Source: Viridothelium virens
Taxonomy: Eukaryota; Ascomycota; Dothideomycetes; Trypetheliales; Trypetheliaceae
NCBI GenBank assembly: GCA_010094025.1
Contig: ML991853.1
Location: 1-64,000, forward strand
Direction of reading: 5' to 3'
Length of the DNA stretch: 64,000 nucleotides
Positions 3,863-49,211 of the stretch are shown here, one piece after another. The position numbers and the translations under genes were made by a program. Within the stretch, counting starts at the first letter, position 1. Each line of letters opens with the position of its first letter. The notes under the pieces were generated by a model. The model saw nothing but the letters and a program-made list of their open reading frames with translations. It searched no databases and was not told the origin of the DNA.

Positions 3863-6112
3863 CTACGCCTGCCCACCCACTAACTCCTCCCCCTTCTCAT
3901 CCTTCCCTCCACTCCCCTCTCCACTCCTCTTACTCCTCTCACTCCCCTTCGGACTTTCCCTCCTACTTCCTCTTCCCTCCTTCCCCAAATCACTCCTCAC
4001 ACTAGCTAAAATCGCACCCCCTCCCTCCATCTTCCCCAACCTTACCACCAAAGCCGTATTCTCCTTCTGCAACTCCCCGACCTGACTCCTCAACACCTCA
4101 TTCTCCCTCTCCAAATACCCCACGCGCTCGCGAAACCCCTCCCTCTCCTGCTTCACCCTCTGCCACGCATCCTTCTCATCCACCTTCTTCCTGCGCTCCT
4201 CCCGCTTCCTCGCCTCCTTCTCCCGCTTCTCCTCCAGCTTCCGCATCTCCTTCTGATGCCGCTCCTCATACTTGCGCACCTCGCGGTCGTGGCGCTCGCG
4301 CGCCTTCGCCGCCTCCGCCTCCGTCTTCTCGCTGTCGCGCGCCCGCCGCGCGTCCTCCTTCGCGTGCTGCCGCGACAGCTTCTCGTCCAGCGCGCGCCGC
4401 TTGTCTTCGAGCTTCGTCAGCTCGCGGTCGTGCTGGAAGGTTGCGGCGCGGTTGGGGCCGCCGGGCCGCGCGGCGCTGGAGAGCGGTGTCTCGGTCGAGG
4501 CGCTGGAGTCGAAGGAGAGGGCTGATGAGGTCGACAGTTTCTTGCGGTGTTGCTGGTGGGCTTCGTCGTCGTCGTCGTCGGCGGCGGCGGCGTAGGGTGG
4601 AGGACGTTCCTGGGCGGTGTGGAAGGGCTCGGCGTCCGCGAAGGATTGGAGGGAGGAGGTGCTGGTGCTGGATGAGCTGGAGCTGGAGGAGCGACGCTGG
4701 GCGTGGGGTGTGGAAGGGGTGGGATTGGCGACCTCGCCTTGGACGAATTGCGGAGCATAGGAGCGGACGACGTCGGAGATCTGGGACATCAGGCCTTGGT
4801 CTTGGCCAGAAGCATGGTGGTGGCCGTCCGCTTCGGTTCGCTCGTCGTATTGGCCTGTCATGGTTGTGCTACCACGACGAGAAGAGCTTTCGAGACCAGA
4901 AAGGTGACCGTTCACTTCGACTTGTTCTTCTTCTAGAGCTTCAGTTTCTTCATCTTCAGCATTAGATTTAGAGGTAGCTCCAGATATTTCATGTTCAGCG
5001 GTTCCTGCGTTGGCGGTGAAATCTTGACTGCAGGCCCAGTTGAGGAATTTTGAGGCATCGGAAATGATACTTGATGGTGTACCGCGTTCGACCATGAAGC
5101 GAGGAATGCCACCACCGGGATCACTACGAGTTACCATAATCCACTGAACTGGGTTCAATTCTGCTTTCTCATTTTCATCATCCAGGTCTAGTCGCTCGCC
5201 CTTTGCTTCTGGACCCCTTGATTCAGCAAAGCCTATCGTATGTCCCCGATCTCGACTTCTTGTAGGACTACTTGCTCTGTTCAGAAGATCTGTAGTCGAC
5301 GCAGCCTTGGATGGCACCAGTGGTATTTCTCTTATCAATTCTATTGATTCATATTGACCTCGTACATAGCCCTCCCGCTCCGGAGCATCCGGATGTTGGC
5401 AAGGTTTCGAGACGACCATGAAATGCCTGGGTATTGATTTCGGGGACTTTGGAGAGTCGATGTGTGGCGCTGAAGCCTCGCTGAGGCAGTTCTCAGACGT
5501 CATCAGGAGAGTAATGAATTCTCTGGGTGCCACAGGTCCGGGGAATTGTGCGGACAGTTGGAAAACCTCTAGTACGCCCAAGCCTTCAACTTCCTTCTTG
5601 TCCAATCTTTGATCCACACCTATACCTCTGACGCATCCAGCACCGGGACCACCCTCTACCGCCATGCTTTCTAGAAACTCCCTTTTCATTGCCGTCCGCC
5701 ATTTATCAAACCCCAAACCTTCGTGGACGCTACTCCGAGCAAACCATGCCCCATGCCTATCATGCCCTGCCATTTTATATAGGGATATGCCTAAGGGGTT
5801 CTCTTTTGGATTGACCTTCATTGGCTTGCCCCATCCCTTTTGTAGCTCAACATGTGACGGCTGTGGCGGAGGCGGTCGTGCAGAAGACACAGTCATCGTG
5901 GCGGCATTATGTGCGCTGTTGACTTGCGAAGTGGAAGGCTTAGAGTGAAGGAAGTCATCTCCGCCGGGAGGTGGTGGGACAGAGTTGGCAATGGTCTCTG
6001 CTTGAGTGAAAGCATTGGACATGAAGCTATTGAGGTCGGATAGAGGAATATCGTCAAAGTTTATCGGTCCCAGAGCGGATAGCGCGCCTTGAAGTTGAGA
6101 CATGCTGAACAA
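3863..6112 (-). CDS. DUF3074 (START-like) domain protein with C-terminal coiled coil
   Basis: A single uninterrupted frame of 749 aa. Residues of about 90-380 match the fungal DUF3074 layout, which has a START-like lipid-binding fold: KGWGKPMKVNPKENPLGI, WFARSSVHEGLGFDKW, the VAPREFITLL strand, HFMVVSKPCQHPDAPEREGY, then NPVQWIMVTRSDPGGGIPR and FMVERGTPSSI. A Ser-rich, low-complexity middle with an Asp run (a GTC/GTG trinucleotide tract at about 4567-4580) leads into a long Lys/Glu/Arg-rich coiled coil at about 560-700. Function is not established for the family; lipid or membrane association is an inference from the fold. Start chosen at the first Met (MFSMSQLQGALSALGP). Codon use is rich in C/G-ending codons in the coiled-coil part. 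Confidence 0.85.
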   Translation of the reverse strand: MFSMSQLQGALSALGPINFDDIPLSDLNSFMSNAFTQAETIANSVPPPPGGDDFLHSKPSTSQVNSAHNAATMTVSSARPPPPQPSHVELQKGWGKPMKVNPKENPLGISLYKMAGHDRHGAWFARSSVHEGLGFDKWRTAMKREFLESMAVEGGPGAGCVRGIGVDQRLDKKEVEGLGVLEVFQLSAQFPGPVAPREFITLLMTSENCLSEASAPHIDSPKSPKSIPRHFMVVSKPCQHPDAPEREGYVRGQYESIELIREIPLVPSKAASTTDLLNRASSPTRSRDRGHTIGFAESRGPEAKGERLDLDDENEKAELNPVQWIMVTRSDPGGGIPRFMVERGTPSSIISDASKFLNWACSQDFTANAGTAEHEISGATSKSNAEDEETEALEEEQVEVNGHLSGLESSSRRGSTTMTGQYDERTEADGHHHASGQDQGLMSQISDVVRSYAPQFVQGEVANPTPSTPHAQRRSSSSSSSSTSTSSLQSFADAEPFHTAQERPPPYAAAADDDDDEAHQQHRKKLSTSSALSFDSSASTETPLSSAARPGGPNRAATFQHDRELTKLEDKRRALDEKLSRQHAKEDARRARDSEKTEAEAAKARERHDREVRKYEERHQKEMRKLEEKREKEARKREERRKKVDEKDAWQRVKQEREGFRERVGYLERENEVLRSQVGELQKENTALVVRLGKMEGGGAILASVRSDLGKEGRGSRRESPKGSERSKRSGEGSGGKDEKGEELVGGQA

Positions 6113-19077: not shown

Positions 19078-19227
19078 TGCTACGAGCAAGGTTCGAACTT
19101 GCGCGGATCTCTCCAGCAGAGATATAGTCGAAAAATACTTAAATCTGCCGCCTTAACCTATCAATCTATTAGTCTAATATATCAAATGAACATGCAAGAG
19201 GTCATCTCACCACTCGGCCATCGTAGC
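19078..19227 (-). tRNA. tRNA-Leu(UAA), interrupted twice (D-loop and anticodon loop)
   Basis: Read on the minus strand, every tRNA part is intact. Acceptor GCTACGA (19221-19227) pairs perfectly with TCGTAGC (19079-19085), with discriminator A at 19078. The D stem is GCC/GGC. Anticodon stem GCAGA/TCTGC encloses TT-TAA-G. The long variable arm TGGAGAGATCCGC carries a GGA/TCC stem, and the T arm is GCAAG-TTCGAAC-CTTGC. Anticodon TAA occupies 19139-19141. A 16-nt intron (19122-19137) sits after position 37, the standard place. A further 53 nt (19158-19210) interrupts the D loop between the invariant G18 and G19. Removing both leaves 81 nt, normal for tRNA-Leu before CCA addition. The A box (TGGCCGAGTGG) survives because the insertion begins with G, and the B box is AGTTCGAACCT. 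There is no mismatch in any stem, which argues against a dead copy. Confidence 0.9.
19158..19210 (-). other. 53-nt spliceosomal-intron-like insertion in tRNA D loop
   Basis: On the minus strand it begins GTGAGA, contains GACTAATA, a good fungal branch-point match, 8-15 nt before its end, and closes with GATAG. These are the donor, branch and acceptor signals, and the length (53 nt) equals many protein-gene introns in this window. It is AT-rich in its second half like them. Host sequence on either side is GAGTG and GTTAA, which join to a standard D loop. That it is removed by the spliceosome is inference. Confidence 0.6.
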
Positions 19228-43244: not shown

Positions 43245-44232
43245 GAGGGATAGTGTTCGGTCAGAACTCGTAATTTGCTTTCGTCGACAAGTCGAGATCT
43301 GTGGGCGCACACGCGGACTGGGCAGGCACCGGAGCTGCCTCTAGCCTAAGAAGGTGGGTGGCGTCGCTCGGTCGGGAGAGACGTTTGAGGATGGCGATGC
43401 AATCAAATCTCAGCAAGTTCGGACGCTCTTGTGAGTTGTCAGACACGGAGCAGGGTTTGAGTAGCTGGACGCAGGGCTCGAGGTCGCATTGGTTGGAAAA
43501 TGCAGTCGACCCTAGAGATAACGATCTGGCGGGAATGAGGACGTTGAAGACAGAAACCACATCACACATCACCAGGTTGAGGGTGAGAGTCGGGAGGGTC
43601 TACCTAGAGACAGAGATGCCCGTCCAAGGCTTCCAACAGCTGGCTCGCGGCCCCCGTTTGCCTGCTCGTGCTTGTCTGTGGCCAGATAAGGCAATATCAC
43701 AGCTCGCAGAGTGAGAGGTAGCAGGGCGGAAGGGCCTAAATTGGAAACTTTGCACGGACGGGGCGCATCCCGGCCTTCCCTTTGGGTCCCTACCTAATCA
43801 GTAGTAATCACTGCTATCACCCACATCACCCTAGGTATGGCTGGCATGGGTGGTATGGTCCCGCGCCCGCCGCCTGGCGAACTAGTCCACTAGCGCTGCC
43901 AGGGCTGATCATCAAACCGCACCACCGTGCTCTGCGACTCGAGTCCATTGCAAACTCCCATCGTGATTCTTCTGCCTCCTCGTTCTGAACTTCTGAGCTT
44001 CTGCACTTCTGAACCCTGCCGCTCCTCCTCTGTTCGAGCTGTCCATTACTGTCGGATCTTGCTCGCTCTACCAACTTCTTCTCTTCTTCCCCTCCCAGCC
44101 ACCGACTTTGGCAAGTGTCCAAACCGCTGAGCACTTCCCCTCCACCCACTCCACCCATGGAGGCTTGAGAGAACAATACCGACGCAGCCTCAACCTGACT
44201 CACCACTTCGCCCTAGCGGGCTGGAACTAGAA
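42889..44232. other. Intergenic with 5' flank of MED15
   Basis: About 1.3 kb. Apart from the AAAG microsatellite, a pyrimidine-rich stretch just before the MED15 start (about 43960-44200) looks like promoter or 5' leader. A frame at 43301-43714 has no family resemblance. Confidence 0.45.
43213..43244 (+). repeat. (AAAG)8 microsatellite
   Basis: Eight perfect AAAG units in the spacer between the ankyrin and MED15 genes. Confidence 0.95.
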
Positions 44233-47200
44233 ATGAATGCGAGCGGCATGGCAAATCTGCCAAACGGCGCACAAGTTCGCAATGAAATCCAGAACCACCT
44301 TCTTCGACAGCAAGCTGCTCCTCCACCAGGTTGGCAACAGACCACCGCCGTCACAGAGCGCGCCAACTCCGTCTTCACAATGTAAGTTGACCCCATCGGC
44401 CGTCAGCAGCGACCTTGTATCTGCTTTCCTTCCATCGTGCAACCTGTTTGTACAAAGAAAGTAAGCTTGCCGACCATGACTAACCGAGCCTCTCTCCGTA
44501 GTTACTCCCAGTTAATCCTACTACTGCCCAACGAAGCCGGAAAGTGCCTCAATATTGCTTTCACCTTCGAGAGCGAAGCCTTCCGAACCAGCTCATCCAA
44601 GGTGAGTCGATACAGCGGTTGCCTGAGTTAGGAGCGACGGGATCTCTGACCATCACGCAGGAACAATATTTGCATGCTCTTGCTCAGAAGCAGGAACAGA
44701 TTGCCCAGCAAAGGCAGAACAAGGCCGAGAAGAATGGCATGGCATTGGGGAACATGGCACAAATGGGCATGATGCCTCCTAATCAAATGCAAAATCCAAT
44801 GGCTGGACAAGTACCTGCCCAGGGCGCCCAAGGCTTCAACCCTCAGCTACAGCGACCAATGCAAGCGACTCCGCTTCCACAGAATCCTCAAAATCCCTAC
44901 GCCCAGAGCCTACAGACCGCCGGCATGTCATCAACCCCCCAATCCAACGCCCAGAACCTATCACATCAGCAACACCATCCCAATCCCGGCAATTTCACTC
45001 CTCAAGAGATACAACGAATCCAGCAGTTCGCCACAACCAAGATGCAACAAATGTCACAAATGTCACAAGAGCAGCGAAGTGCATTCATGGCTAATCTCAC
45101 GAACCACCAAAGACAAGACGTTCAAAGGTCAGGCGCCAATGCTCTTATGAACTACTGGCGCCAGGCGGGCATGAAGCAGCTTCTGCAACTTAAGGCGAGC
45201 CAGCAACAGAACAACAGCAATCCTGCACCAGCGCAGAATATGATGGCTGGCATGGGTCCGATGCGAGGCTCACAGGCTGGATTTGGGCGCCCACAACAAC
45301 AAATGCCCATAAGCCAGGGAACATCGAACAATTTCCAAGATGGTCAAGACGTCAATGTTGCGCAAATCCTTGGTCAGCAAGCAGATGCCCAGAAATCTCA
45401 GGATGCTGGTCAGCTCGTAGTTCCTGCCAGTAACAACCCGGCTGGTGCTCCACAGATGACCGCTCAACAGTCTGTGGGTGGGCAAAACTCGATGCAGACT
45501 CAAATGTTCAACAATCAACCTTTCGCCAACCAGCAGAGTGCAATGCGTGCACAGCAACATTTGACCCAGACTCAGCAACTTCAAGCAGCTCAAGCAGCTC
45601 AGGCGAGAACTATGTCTCTACAGGGACAAATCGGTGGGCTGAACGGCTCCCAACCACCACAGCAAAGCCCAGCAATGCCGAATCTCAATCGACCCATGGT
45701 ACCACCCGGTAGCAACACTCCACAACCACGGGCACAGCAGGGTGCTCCATCAGGCATGCAATCGAGTCCCGTACCAATGGAAAATCGAATGTCTCAGCAA
45801 GGCCAAATGGGCTTTCCGAACCAGAACGGACCGAATGGCATGCAACTCTCTCGTGCCAATCTGATCCCATCAAACATCCAACCACATGTGCGACAACGGC
45901 TCATGATGTTGCCGGAGGCCCAGTTCCAAAGCACTCTACGGACGATGACACAACCGACACCGCAGCAAATGGCAGCAAGGAACAATGGTAGCCAAGGACC
46001 TAACCAGCCTCAATTCCATATGCAACCCGGCCGACCTCAGATGCAGCAAAATCCTCTCCAACCCAATCAACAAGGACCAAACATTGGTGCACAACCGCAG
46101 CATGTCGCACCGGGGCAACATCCACAGCAGCCACAACCCAACAGAGCGCTGTCGAACATCCAGCAAGCATTCCTACACAACCCTGCTAAAATTGCGGAGT
46201 GGGACCAAAGGCCGTTTCCGCCGGCACTCAGGGCCAAGATCCCCAAATTACCTGAGCACTGCCAGACTTGGGGTCAGGTCAAACACTTCGCGAACGCGTC
46301 GCCCCATACGTCGTTCATGAACAAAAGCCTACTCCAAGCCCAAAGCCAGCAATTTGAGTCGTTTTGCGTGGCAGTCCAACGACAACGTCAGGCATCGGGC
46401 ATCAGTAGTGAAGGCCAAATGGGCAACATGGTAAATCCAAATGCCATGTCGATGCCTGCCAATGGACCTGCTCCACCTGCTCCAATGGTCGCACCAGGGC
46501 AGCAGCAAGTTCCACCACAAGCGAAAATGGCGATGCAGCCACAATTTCCGGCAAACGTCCCTCCAAATGTCCCCACAGTCACTGCACAGGAGATAGCGAA
46601 CGTGCGCCAAAACAACGGTCAGAAAGTGGCAAACCTGACTGATGACCAGTTGCGGCAAATCATTTGGGCTGGCAAGGTGCGGACGTTGCAGAACAAGCAA
46701 GGCCAGGGCGTGGCTCAAGGAACAGGAAATGCAATGCATTCTCAACCTGGCCTTGCTCCAAATGCGCTCCAACAGCCTCGAGCACAGGCTCAACTCTCTG
46801 CAGCACAGGCGCAGCAGGTACCCAGGCCACAAGTCAAGCCCCAGACTGCACCGAAGGTCCCACAGCAAGCTGGTCCGGCCCAAATGCAGCAGAACCAGAG
46901 AGGTCAGAAGCGGCCATCCAGCAATGACGATGTCGTGGAGGTGCCGCCCCCTAAAGCTGTCAAGACAAATGAGGCTCCCAACATGCAGCAGTCGAAGTCT
47001 CAGCAGGGTAGTCAGGCGCAACAGATTGATCAACACCGTCCGCAGGCAATGGCAAAGGCGCCTGCAAACGCAGGCAAGCAACAGAACCAGAGCACGAGTG
47101 CTTCTACTAGCACAAACGGACAGCCCGCCGCCCCGGCTAATTCGAACTTCGAAGAGAAGCGGAAATCGCGAGTCGCCTTACTTATGCAGGAGATTCGAGA

Positions 47201-49211
47201 GTCCATCACCAAGAACAGCACTGCCAGGAACTTGCGACAAGATCAACTTGATCAGCTGGACGCGATGTTGCAACAAAACAAGTCAATCATTGACCAATCC
47301 ATTAGGAACGCTTACTACTACTGTGTTAAGACTGGTGACGAGGTTCTTAGTCGACAGGTTTTCCAACCGGTGAGTAACTCAAGTCTGTATCTGTTCTGTA
47401 CCTCACTAATTATTTGACAGGTTATCCTTGCCAAGGTACTTCCTGAGAGTATTAGGACTGGTAGACCTCTCGCGTCACCTGCGGAGTTCGGCGCCGCCTT
47501 AACTGCAATAAATCAGTCCGTCAAGATCATGCATGAAAAATTGAGCGAGATCACCCAACAGGAGAAAGCGGGCAAACCACTAGCTGCTGTCCAGGGTGGT
47601 GCATCAGAGCCACAAACACAGCTCAATGCGGCCAATTTGAAGCAACACCAGAAAGAAACAACTATGATGAGACAAGCGTCGCTTCACAAACGCAGTAACT
47701 CCAAGACCCCGTCTGCGCCTACTTCTACACAACCTCCCTTCCAATTTGGTGCTGGTGCTTCCTCACCACAGGGTGTTCCCGCTTATGGACCATCCAACGA
47801 GCTTACTTCAGACAAGCTCAAAATACCACCGATTAGGAAGCGTAAGGCGCAGGCAGGTAGCGCTGCCTCAACACCTGGTCAGCCGACTCCAGGCTCCATG
47901 ACTTCACCACAAGTCACCAAGTCACCAGAGGTTAAGCGTGCTCCGGCTCCTGAGCCTGCGAAACCTGCGCCCCCGAAGAACGTATTCAAATGCCAAGAGA
48001 ACGACTGTGACTACAAGGATCGCGGCTTTTCCACTCAACAAGAGTTGGAAAAGCACAAGACAGACATGCACCCTGTCATCGATGATCCCTTGGCCTTTGC
48101 CCTCAGTGCGGTCGCTGAGTGGGATGGTTGCAATCTGGATGGCACTCTCCAACAATCTAAGGCGGCGCCGCCAGCACCTAAGAAAAATTCAGGCAAGGAT
48201 GCTAGCATCGACAAATTGAAGCCCACTAGTGTCACTTCCGCGAAAGCCGCCACCGCAACGCCCATGGCGCGCTCCGCTACTCAGCCCACCGCACAGGCTT
48301 CTCCAGCCAAGACACCGCTGAACCAGGCTAGTCTCAAGGCACAAACCCCAAGCTCCACTGCCTCGTTCGCACCGAAGACCATGTACACGCAATCGGGTGC
48401 GCCCGTCCGCGTTGGCAAGAAGGCGCAGGAGGCCATGGCTGATGCGCAACGCGAATCCGACGCTCTCAACGAACGCATACACACGATGACACCGGCCGAG
48501 ATCGACGAGGCTTCGAGCCGCATCGCGCGCGAGCTGCCTGAGGAGGATGAGGAAGACGAGGAGGAACAGGCCACGAAGGATGAAGATCTCATGTACAAGC
48601 TCGACCTGTTCAATCGTCAGTGGGACGCAGAGCAAGCGGCGGCGAAAGAAGAGGCCGGCAAGAAGACGAAGAAGACGAAGGCCAGCGAGGAAGCTACTGC
48701 TACTGCTACTGCTGCCGCTGCCGCTGCCGCTGCTTCTGGACCGTCTCCACCAGAGAAGACGCCGGAGCTGTCAAGTCCAAGCGCGAGAGATGACAGTCCG
48801 CGGAGCCAGAGGCTGGATGGGGTGACGCCTCCAGATCCCAGCAAAGACGAAGCACTGCAGCTCCAAGGCGCGCTGAAGAGGAAACTGGGGGCCGAGGACG
48901 ATGTCTTTTACCGCCGCCCATCTAAGGATGATGACGAGGCCGAGATCGAACGCATCTTCAAGCGTCCGCGCTACGACCCATGTGCTATTGATTACGAGAA
49001 CCCGGAGATGCCTGAGAACATGTTCCCGCCGGGCACGGAGGCTGACGACTTCTACGACCCTTATGGCCTCAAAGTTCGAGTGGACCGAGAAGACGAGATG
49101 ATTTTGGACCAGGAGGATGACTATGGACGATACTTGTTTGATGAGGGGATTTTTGCGAGTATCGACGATCCGGCTTGGGAGACTCTTGCGAAGTTGGAGG
49201 CGACATTGTGA
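44233..49211 (+). CDS. MED15: Mediator subunit MED15 (Gal11)
   Basis: Tail-module Mediator subunit that receives signals from transcription activators through its KIX domain. Exons 44233-44381, 44502-44601, 44661-47369 and 47421-49211; 1582 aa. The KIX-like region is assembled from the first three exons: NGAQVRNEIQNHLLRQQ, WQQTTAVTERANSVFTI, YSQLILLLPNEAGKCLN and ESEAFRTSSSKEQYLHALAQ. A very long Gln/Asn/Pro-rich stretch follows (to about residue 850) with short motifs such as FTPQEIQRIQQFATTKM and ALSNIQQAFLHNPAK. A helical segment (KSRVALLMQEIRESITKN) leads to exon 4, then acidic runs, an Ala run and a conserved C-terminus (KRPRYDPCAIDYENPEMPEN, LFDEGIFASIDDPAW). Confidence 0.93.

Follow-up and report, generated by a model that had tools for sequence, protein, structure and literature searches.

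A candidate U2-type spliceosomal intron in the D loop of a tRNA-Leu(UAA) gene of the fungus Viridothelium virens

The splicing of transfer RNA (tRNA) and that of messenger RNA (mRNA) are usually treated as separate systems. Here we describe a nuclear tRNA-Leu(UAA) gene of the filamentous ascomycete Viridothelium virens that may bring the two together. The gene lies on the minus strand of a 64,000-nucleotide (nt) stretch of DNA (contig ML991853.1 of assembly GCA_010094025.1, positions 1 to 64,000), referred to below as the window. Its body is broken by two inserts, one of 16 nt after position 37 and one of 53 nt in the D loop. Judging from the sequence, we consider it probable that a U2-type spliceosomal intron was acquired by the D loop of a tRNA-Leu(UAA) gene transcribed by RNA polymerase III (Pol III). 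The D-loop insert has the anatomy of an mRNA intron, it resembles the introns of neighboring genes, and it bears no convincing motif for the tRNA endonuclease.

The identity of the host gene is clear from its anatomy. None of its five stems has a mismatch: the acceptor (7/7), D (3/3), anticodon (5/5), variable (3/3) and T (5/5) stems all pair in full, which bears out the claim of an earlier note on this DNA that the tRNA body is flawless in every stem. It has a TAA anticodon, and its discriminator A and long variable arm are identity features of leucine tRNAs. Together with the A and B boxes and the terminator, these features make this a nuclear tRNA-Leu(UAA) gene. Standard searches did not recognize it as such. 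ARAGORN in its default mode and Rfam at its gathering score each found zero tRNAs in the window, and the unspliced gene scored 13.8 bits against the Rfam tRNA model, below the gathering score of 29. With three sets of intron options, ARAGORN misread the locus as tRNA-Glu (two sets) or tRNA-Asn (one set), and no tRNA-Leu was called on the unspliced 150-nt gene. When the D-loop insert was left out in silico, ARAGORN reported tRNA-Leu(taa) with a 16-nt intron at positions 37-38, which locates the anticodon-loop intron of the earlier note in the predicted product. A separate scan for T arms (TTCRA loop, 5-base-pair stem and a 7-base-pair acceptor partner) returned a single match, the tRNA-Leu(UAA) gene itself. 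The coordinates of the gene and its parts are collected in the table.

Features of the tRNA-Leu(UAA) locus, in window coordinates
Feature	Position	Strand	Basis or remark
tRNA-Leu(UAA) gene	19227-19078	minus	5' end 19227, discriminator A 19078; five complementary stems; ARAGORN without the D-loop insert
D-loop insert, 53 nt, GTGAGA ... GACTAATAGATTGATAG, candidate U2-type spliceosomal intron	19210-19158	minus	splice score, shuffles
5' splice site GTGAGA, after exon G	19210-19205	minus	sequence; score 7.5 in the local model
Branch site ACTAAT, followed by 10 nt to the insert end	19173-19168	minus	sequence
3' splice site TAG, before exon G	19160-19158	minus	sequence
Intron at 37/38, TATTTTTCGACTATAT, 16 nt	19137-19122	minus	ARAGORN on the predicted product
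A box TGGCCGAGTGG, its final G shared with the start of the insert	19220-19210	minus
B box GTTCGAACC	19098-19090	minus	111 nt from the A box
T7 run, Pol III terminator	19069-19063	minus	8 nt after discriminator A
Upstream element TATATTAA at -40	19267-19260	minus	plus CAA at -16

The D-loop insert runs in the same orientation as the tRNA and, as the earlier note described it, is 53 nt long, starts with GTGAGA and closes in AG. Its branch site has a close counterpart nearby, in that a 51-nt intron at 47370-47420 contains an identical ACTAAT at identical spacing. Because GGT is found at both ends of the insert, four placements of it are equivalent, and only one of these gives GT...AG. The description of the insert as lying between G18 and G19 is therefore one valid reading, but just one of the four.

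To describe the introns of the host, we built position weights for the 5' site, the branch site and the 3' site from eight introns of the window. A scan had yielded 11 candidates, of which eight were kept and three were dropped by eye: 5572-5640, which is antisense to a DUF3074 open reading frame (ORF); 43711-43804, which lacked support; and 46602-46649, which is enclosed by a longer open frame. With different branch limits, an earlier scan had given 13 rows. In three of the eight introns (two in a dioxygenase gene, one in an m-AAA protease gene) Pfam matches extend across the junction, and joining the exons raised the scores of Dioxygenase_C from 104.8 to 147.7 bits, of Dioxygenase_N from 37.0 to 62.1 bits and of the AAA lid from 33.2 to 53.4 bits. 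A search with a 54-amino-acid piece of the dioxygenase returned zero matches; a search of a structure database confirmed the dioxygenase. The remaining five introns are supported by joined frames alone.

Against this local model, the D-loop insert behaves like an intron of the host. Its composite splice score is 16.8, compared with leave-one-out scores of 12.0-19.6 for the eight local introns, and its length fits theirs (51-80 nt). Only 8 of 200,000 shuffled inserts reached the same score in any equivalent placement, and among the 127,894 53-mers of the window five did so, the insert being one of the five. A looser intron test was passed by 92 and 86 per 1,000,000 random 53-mers (two base compositions, all equivalent placements) and by 8 of the 127,894 window 53-mers, again including the insert. 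The likeness of its ends, sites and length to U2-type introns of the host is thus supported.

These counts also bear on the possibility that the insert is a random, merely intron-like insertion that is retained in the precursor, so that the gene would be dead or its tRNA would have a giant D loop. Such an insertion would be compatible with a D loop that keeps its GG without any removal, as the unspliced gene does at positions 18-19, and in one of the equivalent placements the insert follows G19, at a point where the length of D loops is variable. The rarity of equally good shuffles and of random inserts that pass even the loose test argues against this explanation, which we regard as quite improbable.

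A second alternative is that the insert is an ectopic tRNA intron cut by the tRNA endonuclease, in the manner of red-algal D-loop introns. There is precedent for it in the available text of two reports, which describe extra D-arm introns in tRNAs of Cyanidioschyzon merolae and of nucleomorphs (PMC4090602, PMC3978253). According to the accessible part of another source, however, the yeast endonuclease cuts strictly at 37/38 (PMC4033280). At the ends of the D-loop insert, we found no bulge-helix-bulge in any of the four exact placements. With cut sites free to move by several bases, a central helix of four pairs arose at 2 of 90 positions, at one of them with three outer pairs, but 355 of 2,000 shuffles did as well as the best shifted motif, whose 4-base helix by itself scores +2.4 kcal/mol. 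Folding of the precursor was no more stable than that of shuffles (z -0.67), with values of +0.74 for the insert region and -1.08 for the anticodon arm. In the absence of a convincing motif, an endonuclease origin is not supported, and we consider it highly improbable. Where the earlier note had called the insert a spliceosomal-type intron, its GT-AG anatomy is therefore upheld against local introns, shuffles and the endonuclease alternative, while its removal in vivo is something that we infer.

Two further origins were considered. The insert does not look like the intron of an overlapping coding gene, as the open frames at its junction extend no more than 60 nt upstream and 75 nt downstream. 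Within the window there is also no sign that it is a copy of an introner: the sole other match to it at E values up to 1 is 12 nt long. An assembly or sequencing error is a further possible account, the locus being represented by one record only. Against it, the window holds no second copy of the insert, and the ends of the insert match splice signals. We judge such an error to be the least probable of the explanations.

The signals expected of a Pol III gene flank and punctuate the tRNA. The A box remains intact, as the earlier note had proposed, because the D-loop insert begins with G: TGGCCGAGTGG is complete, its final G being supplied by the first base of the insert. The terminator that the note had pointed out is likewise present, as a T7 run shortly past the discriminator. 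Upstream, we take TATATTAA and the CAA that follows it to be a plausible TFIIIB site and transcription start. The gene also has a codon to serve. In 12 ORF segments, not all of which are proven genes, 37 of the 6,084 codons are TTA; since TTA codons are in use, a tRNA-Leu(UAA) is needed.

Several points weigh against the interpretation of the locus as a working gene with a spliceosomal intron. The GC content of the insert, 0.32, lies below the 0.37-0.58 of the eight local introns, a mild discord, and the position weights were built on those eight introns only. Decoy motif sets joined open frames 4, 4, 14 and 4 times, versus 11 times for the true motif; because one decoy set of the four outdid the true motif, frame joining alone proves little. 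Within the anticodon intron, a T5 run at 19131-19135 (minus strand) could act as a premature Pol III stop. The distance between the A and B boxes is 111 nt in the DNA (58 nt without the D-loop insert); the largest such gap among Saccharomyces cerevisiae tRNA genes is 93 base pairs in the part of the source available (PMC11724288), which may draw the ends of the boxes about one base differently. Finally, a strict bulge-helix-bulge is absent at 37/38 for intron lengths of 15, 16 and 17, although a 3-base-pair helix is predicted between the end of the anticodon and the 37/38 intron. The missing strict motif weakens the case for a live gene.

The last three of these points, the T run, the box spacing and the lack of a strict motif at 37/38, would also suit a dead copy: a redundant tRNA-Leu(UAA) gene that took up an intron, mobile or copied, and no longer yields tRNA, its work being done by intact copies elsewhere. 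All stem pairs are intact, however, and the flanking Pol III signals are present, so that a dead copy would need to be young. We consider this explanation unlikely, although it deserves more weight than the other alternatives.

If the D-loop insert is indeed a spliceosomal intron, the following pathway may be envisaged, in which we infer that the gene is transcribed, that the spliceosome removes the insert, that the steps occur in this order and that the tRNA is functional. At the outset, a U2-type intron would have entered the D loop of this nuclear tRNA-Leu(UAA) gene. Pol III would transcribe the gene from the upstream TATA-like element together with the intact A and B boxes. The spliceosome would recognize GUGAGA, ACUAAU and UAG in the precursor and remove the 53 nt in the nucleus, and the D arm would fold only once these are gone. 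The 16-nt intron at 37/38 would afterwards be cut out by the tRNA endonuclease (SEN), an enzyme that requires the folded tRNA body. We place the spliceosome first and the endonuclease second because cutting by the yeast enzyme is strict at 37/38, as its available description has it (PMC4033280), and because Sen54 probably touches the D arm and the acceptor stem, according to the accessible text of a further source (PMC3978253). More tentatively, this gene may be the sole or main source of tRNA-Leu(UAA), made by two unrelated machineries, the spliceosome and then the tRNA endonuclease, in which case the decoding of UUA would depend directly on the spliceosome; we hold this to be possible rather than probable.

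The closest known parallel is the U6 gene of Schizosaccharomyces pombe, where excision of an mRNA-type intron by the spliceosome, out of a Pol III transcript, is described as established in the parts of the literature available (PMC8917221, PMC10484740). The likeness lies in an mRNA-type intron within a Pol III transcript. U6, however, is itself a spliceosomal RNA, whereas here the intron sits in a tRNA that also contains an intron of a different type. The U6 intron is thought to have originated by reverse splicing near catalytic nucleotides, as far as the accessible text of one of these sources goes (PMC10484740). Like the present gene, the eukaryotic tRNA genes of C. merolae and nucleomorphs have a D arm or D loop with an additional insert; in the available text, the C. 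merolae ectopic introns are tied to a bulge-helix-bulge, whereas here there is no convincing motif of that kind but a GT, a branch site and an AG. The gene also has a canonical intron at 37/38, from which the D-loop insert differs in place and in end signals. Introner-like elements are comparable as introns that multiply in filamentous ascomycetes, according to the accessible part of the work on them. Many near-identical copies per genome would be expected of such an element; the insert has no similar second copy in the 64-kilobase window, and the term tRNA is absent from the main text of the paper on these elements. For gene finding, the available description of tRNAscan-SE 2.0 has it handling noncanonical introns for archaea (PMC8450103).

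Among the open-access literature matches listed, and to the extent of their available text, a GT-AG intron in a nuclear tRNA gene is unreported. We therefore suggest, as a weak claim, that a spliceosomal intron, a Pol III host and a tRNA may be known parts in a new combination. We also scanned for tRNA-Leu D-arm patterns with a GT...CTRAY insert in other genomes. No match was found in viral contigs in either of two scans. Five matches were obtained in bacterial and archaeal genomes, all in bacterial records, and were rejected as chance: one of them spans two ordinary tRNA-Cys genes, and at the remaining four ARAGORN sees no tRNA.

If our preferred explanation is correct, the spliceosome can act on a tiny, strongly folded Pol III transcript, the decoding of one codon is tied to spliceosome activity, and an intron has been gained in a gene that allows the event to be dated and tested. 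Ordinary searches miss or misname such genes, and others may therefore hide as apparently missing tRNAs.

The rest of the window is that of a fungal genome, with members of the Fungal_trans, Pal1 and DUF3074 families and further short introns with a CTRAY branch motif. Near its start is an AT-rich block (181-2290) with a GC content of 0.20, a CpG observed/expected ratio of 0.19 and a TpA/ApT ratio of 1.22; beyond 2290, TpA/ApT is 0.61-0.65 and CpG observed/expected 0.87-0.93. Such a composition is what repeat-induced point mutation leaves behind in filamentous ascomycetes. At its edge, positions 2277-2351 hold four near-copies of the 17-nt unit GCTATCGGACGATAGCC, and 2277-2292 and 2305-2320 are mutually perfect inverted repeats; the array is perhaps a transposon end or a cluster of binding sites. 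At 44386-49211, three exons and two short introns encode a long glutamine-rich protein. The protein appears to resemble the Mediator subunit Med15, but its two main ORFs had no Pfam match.
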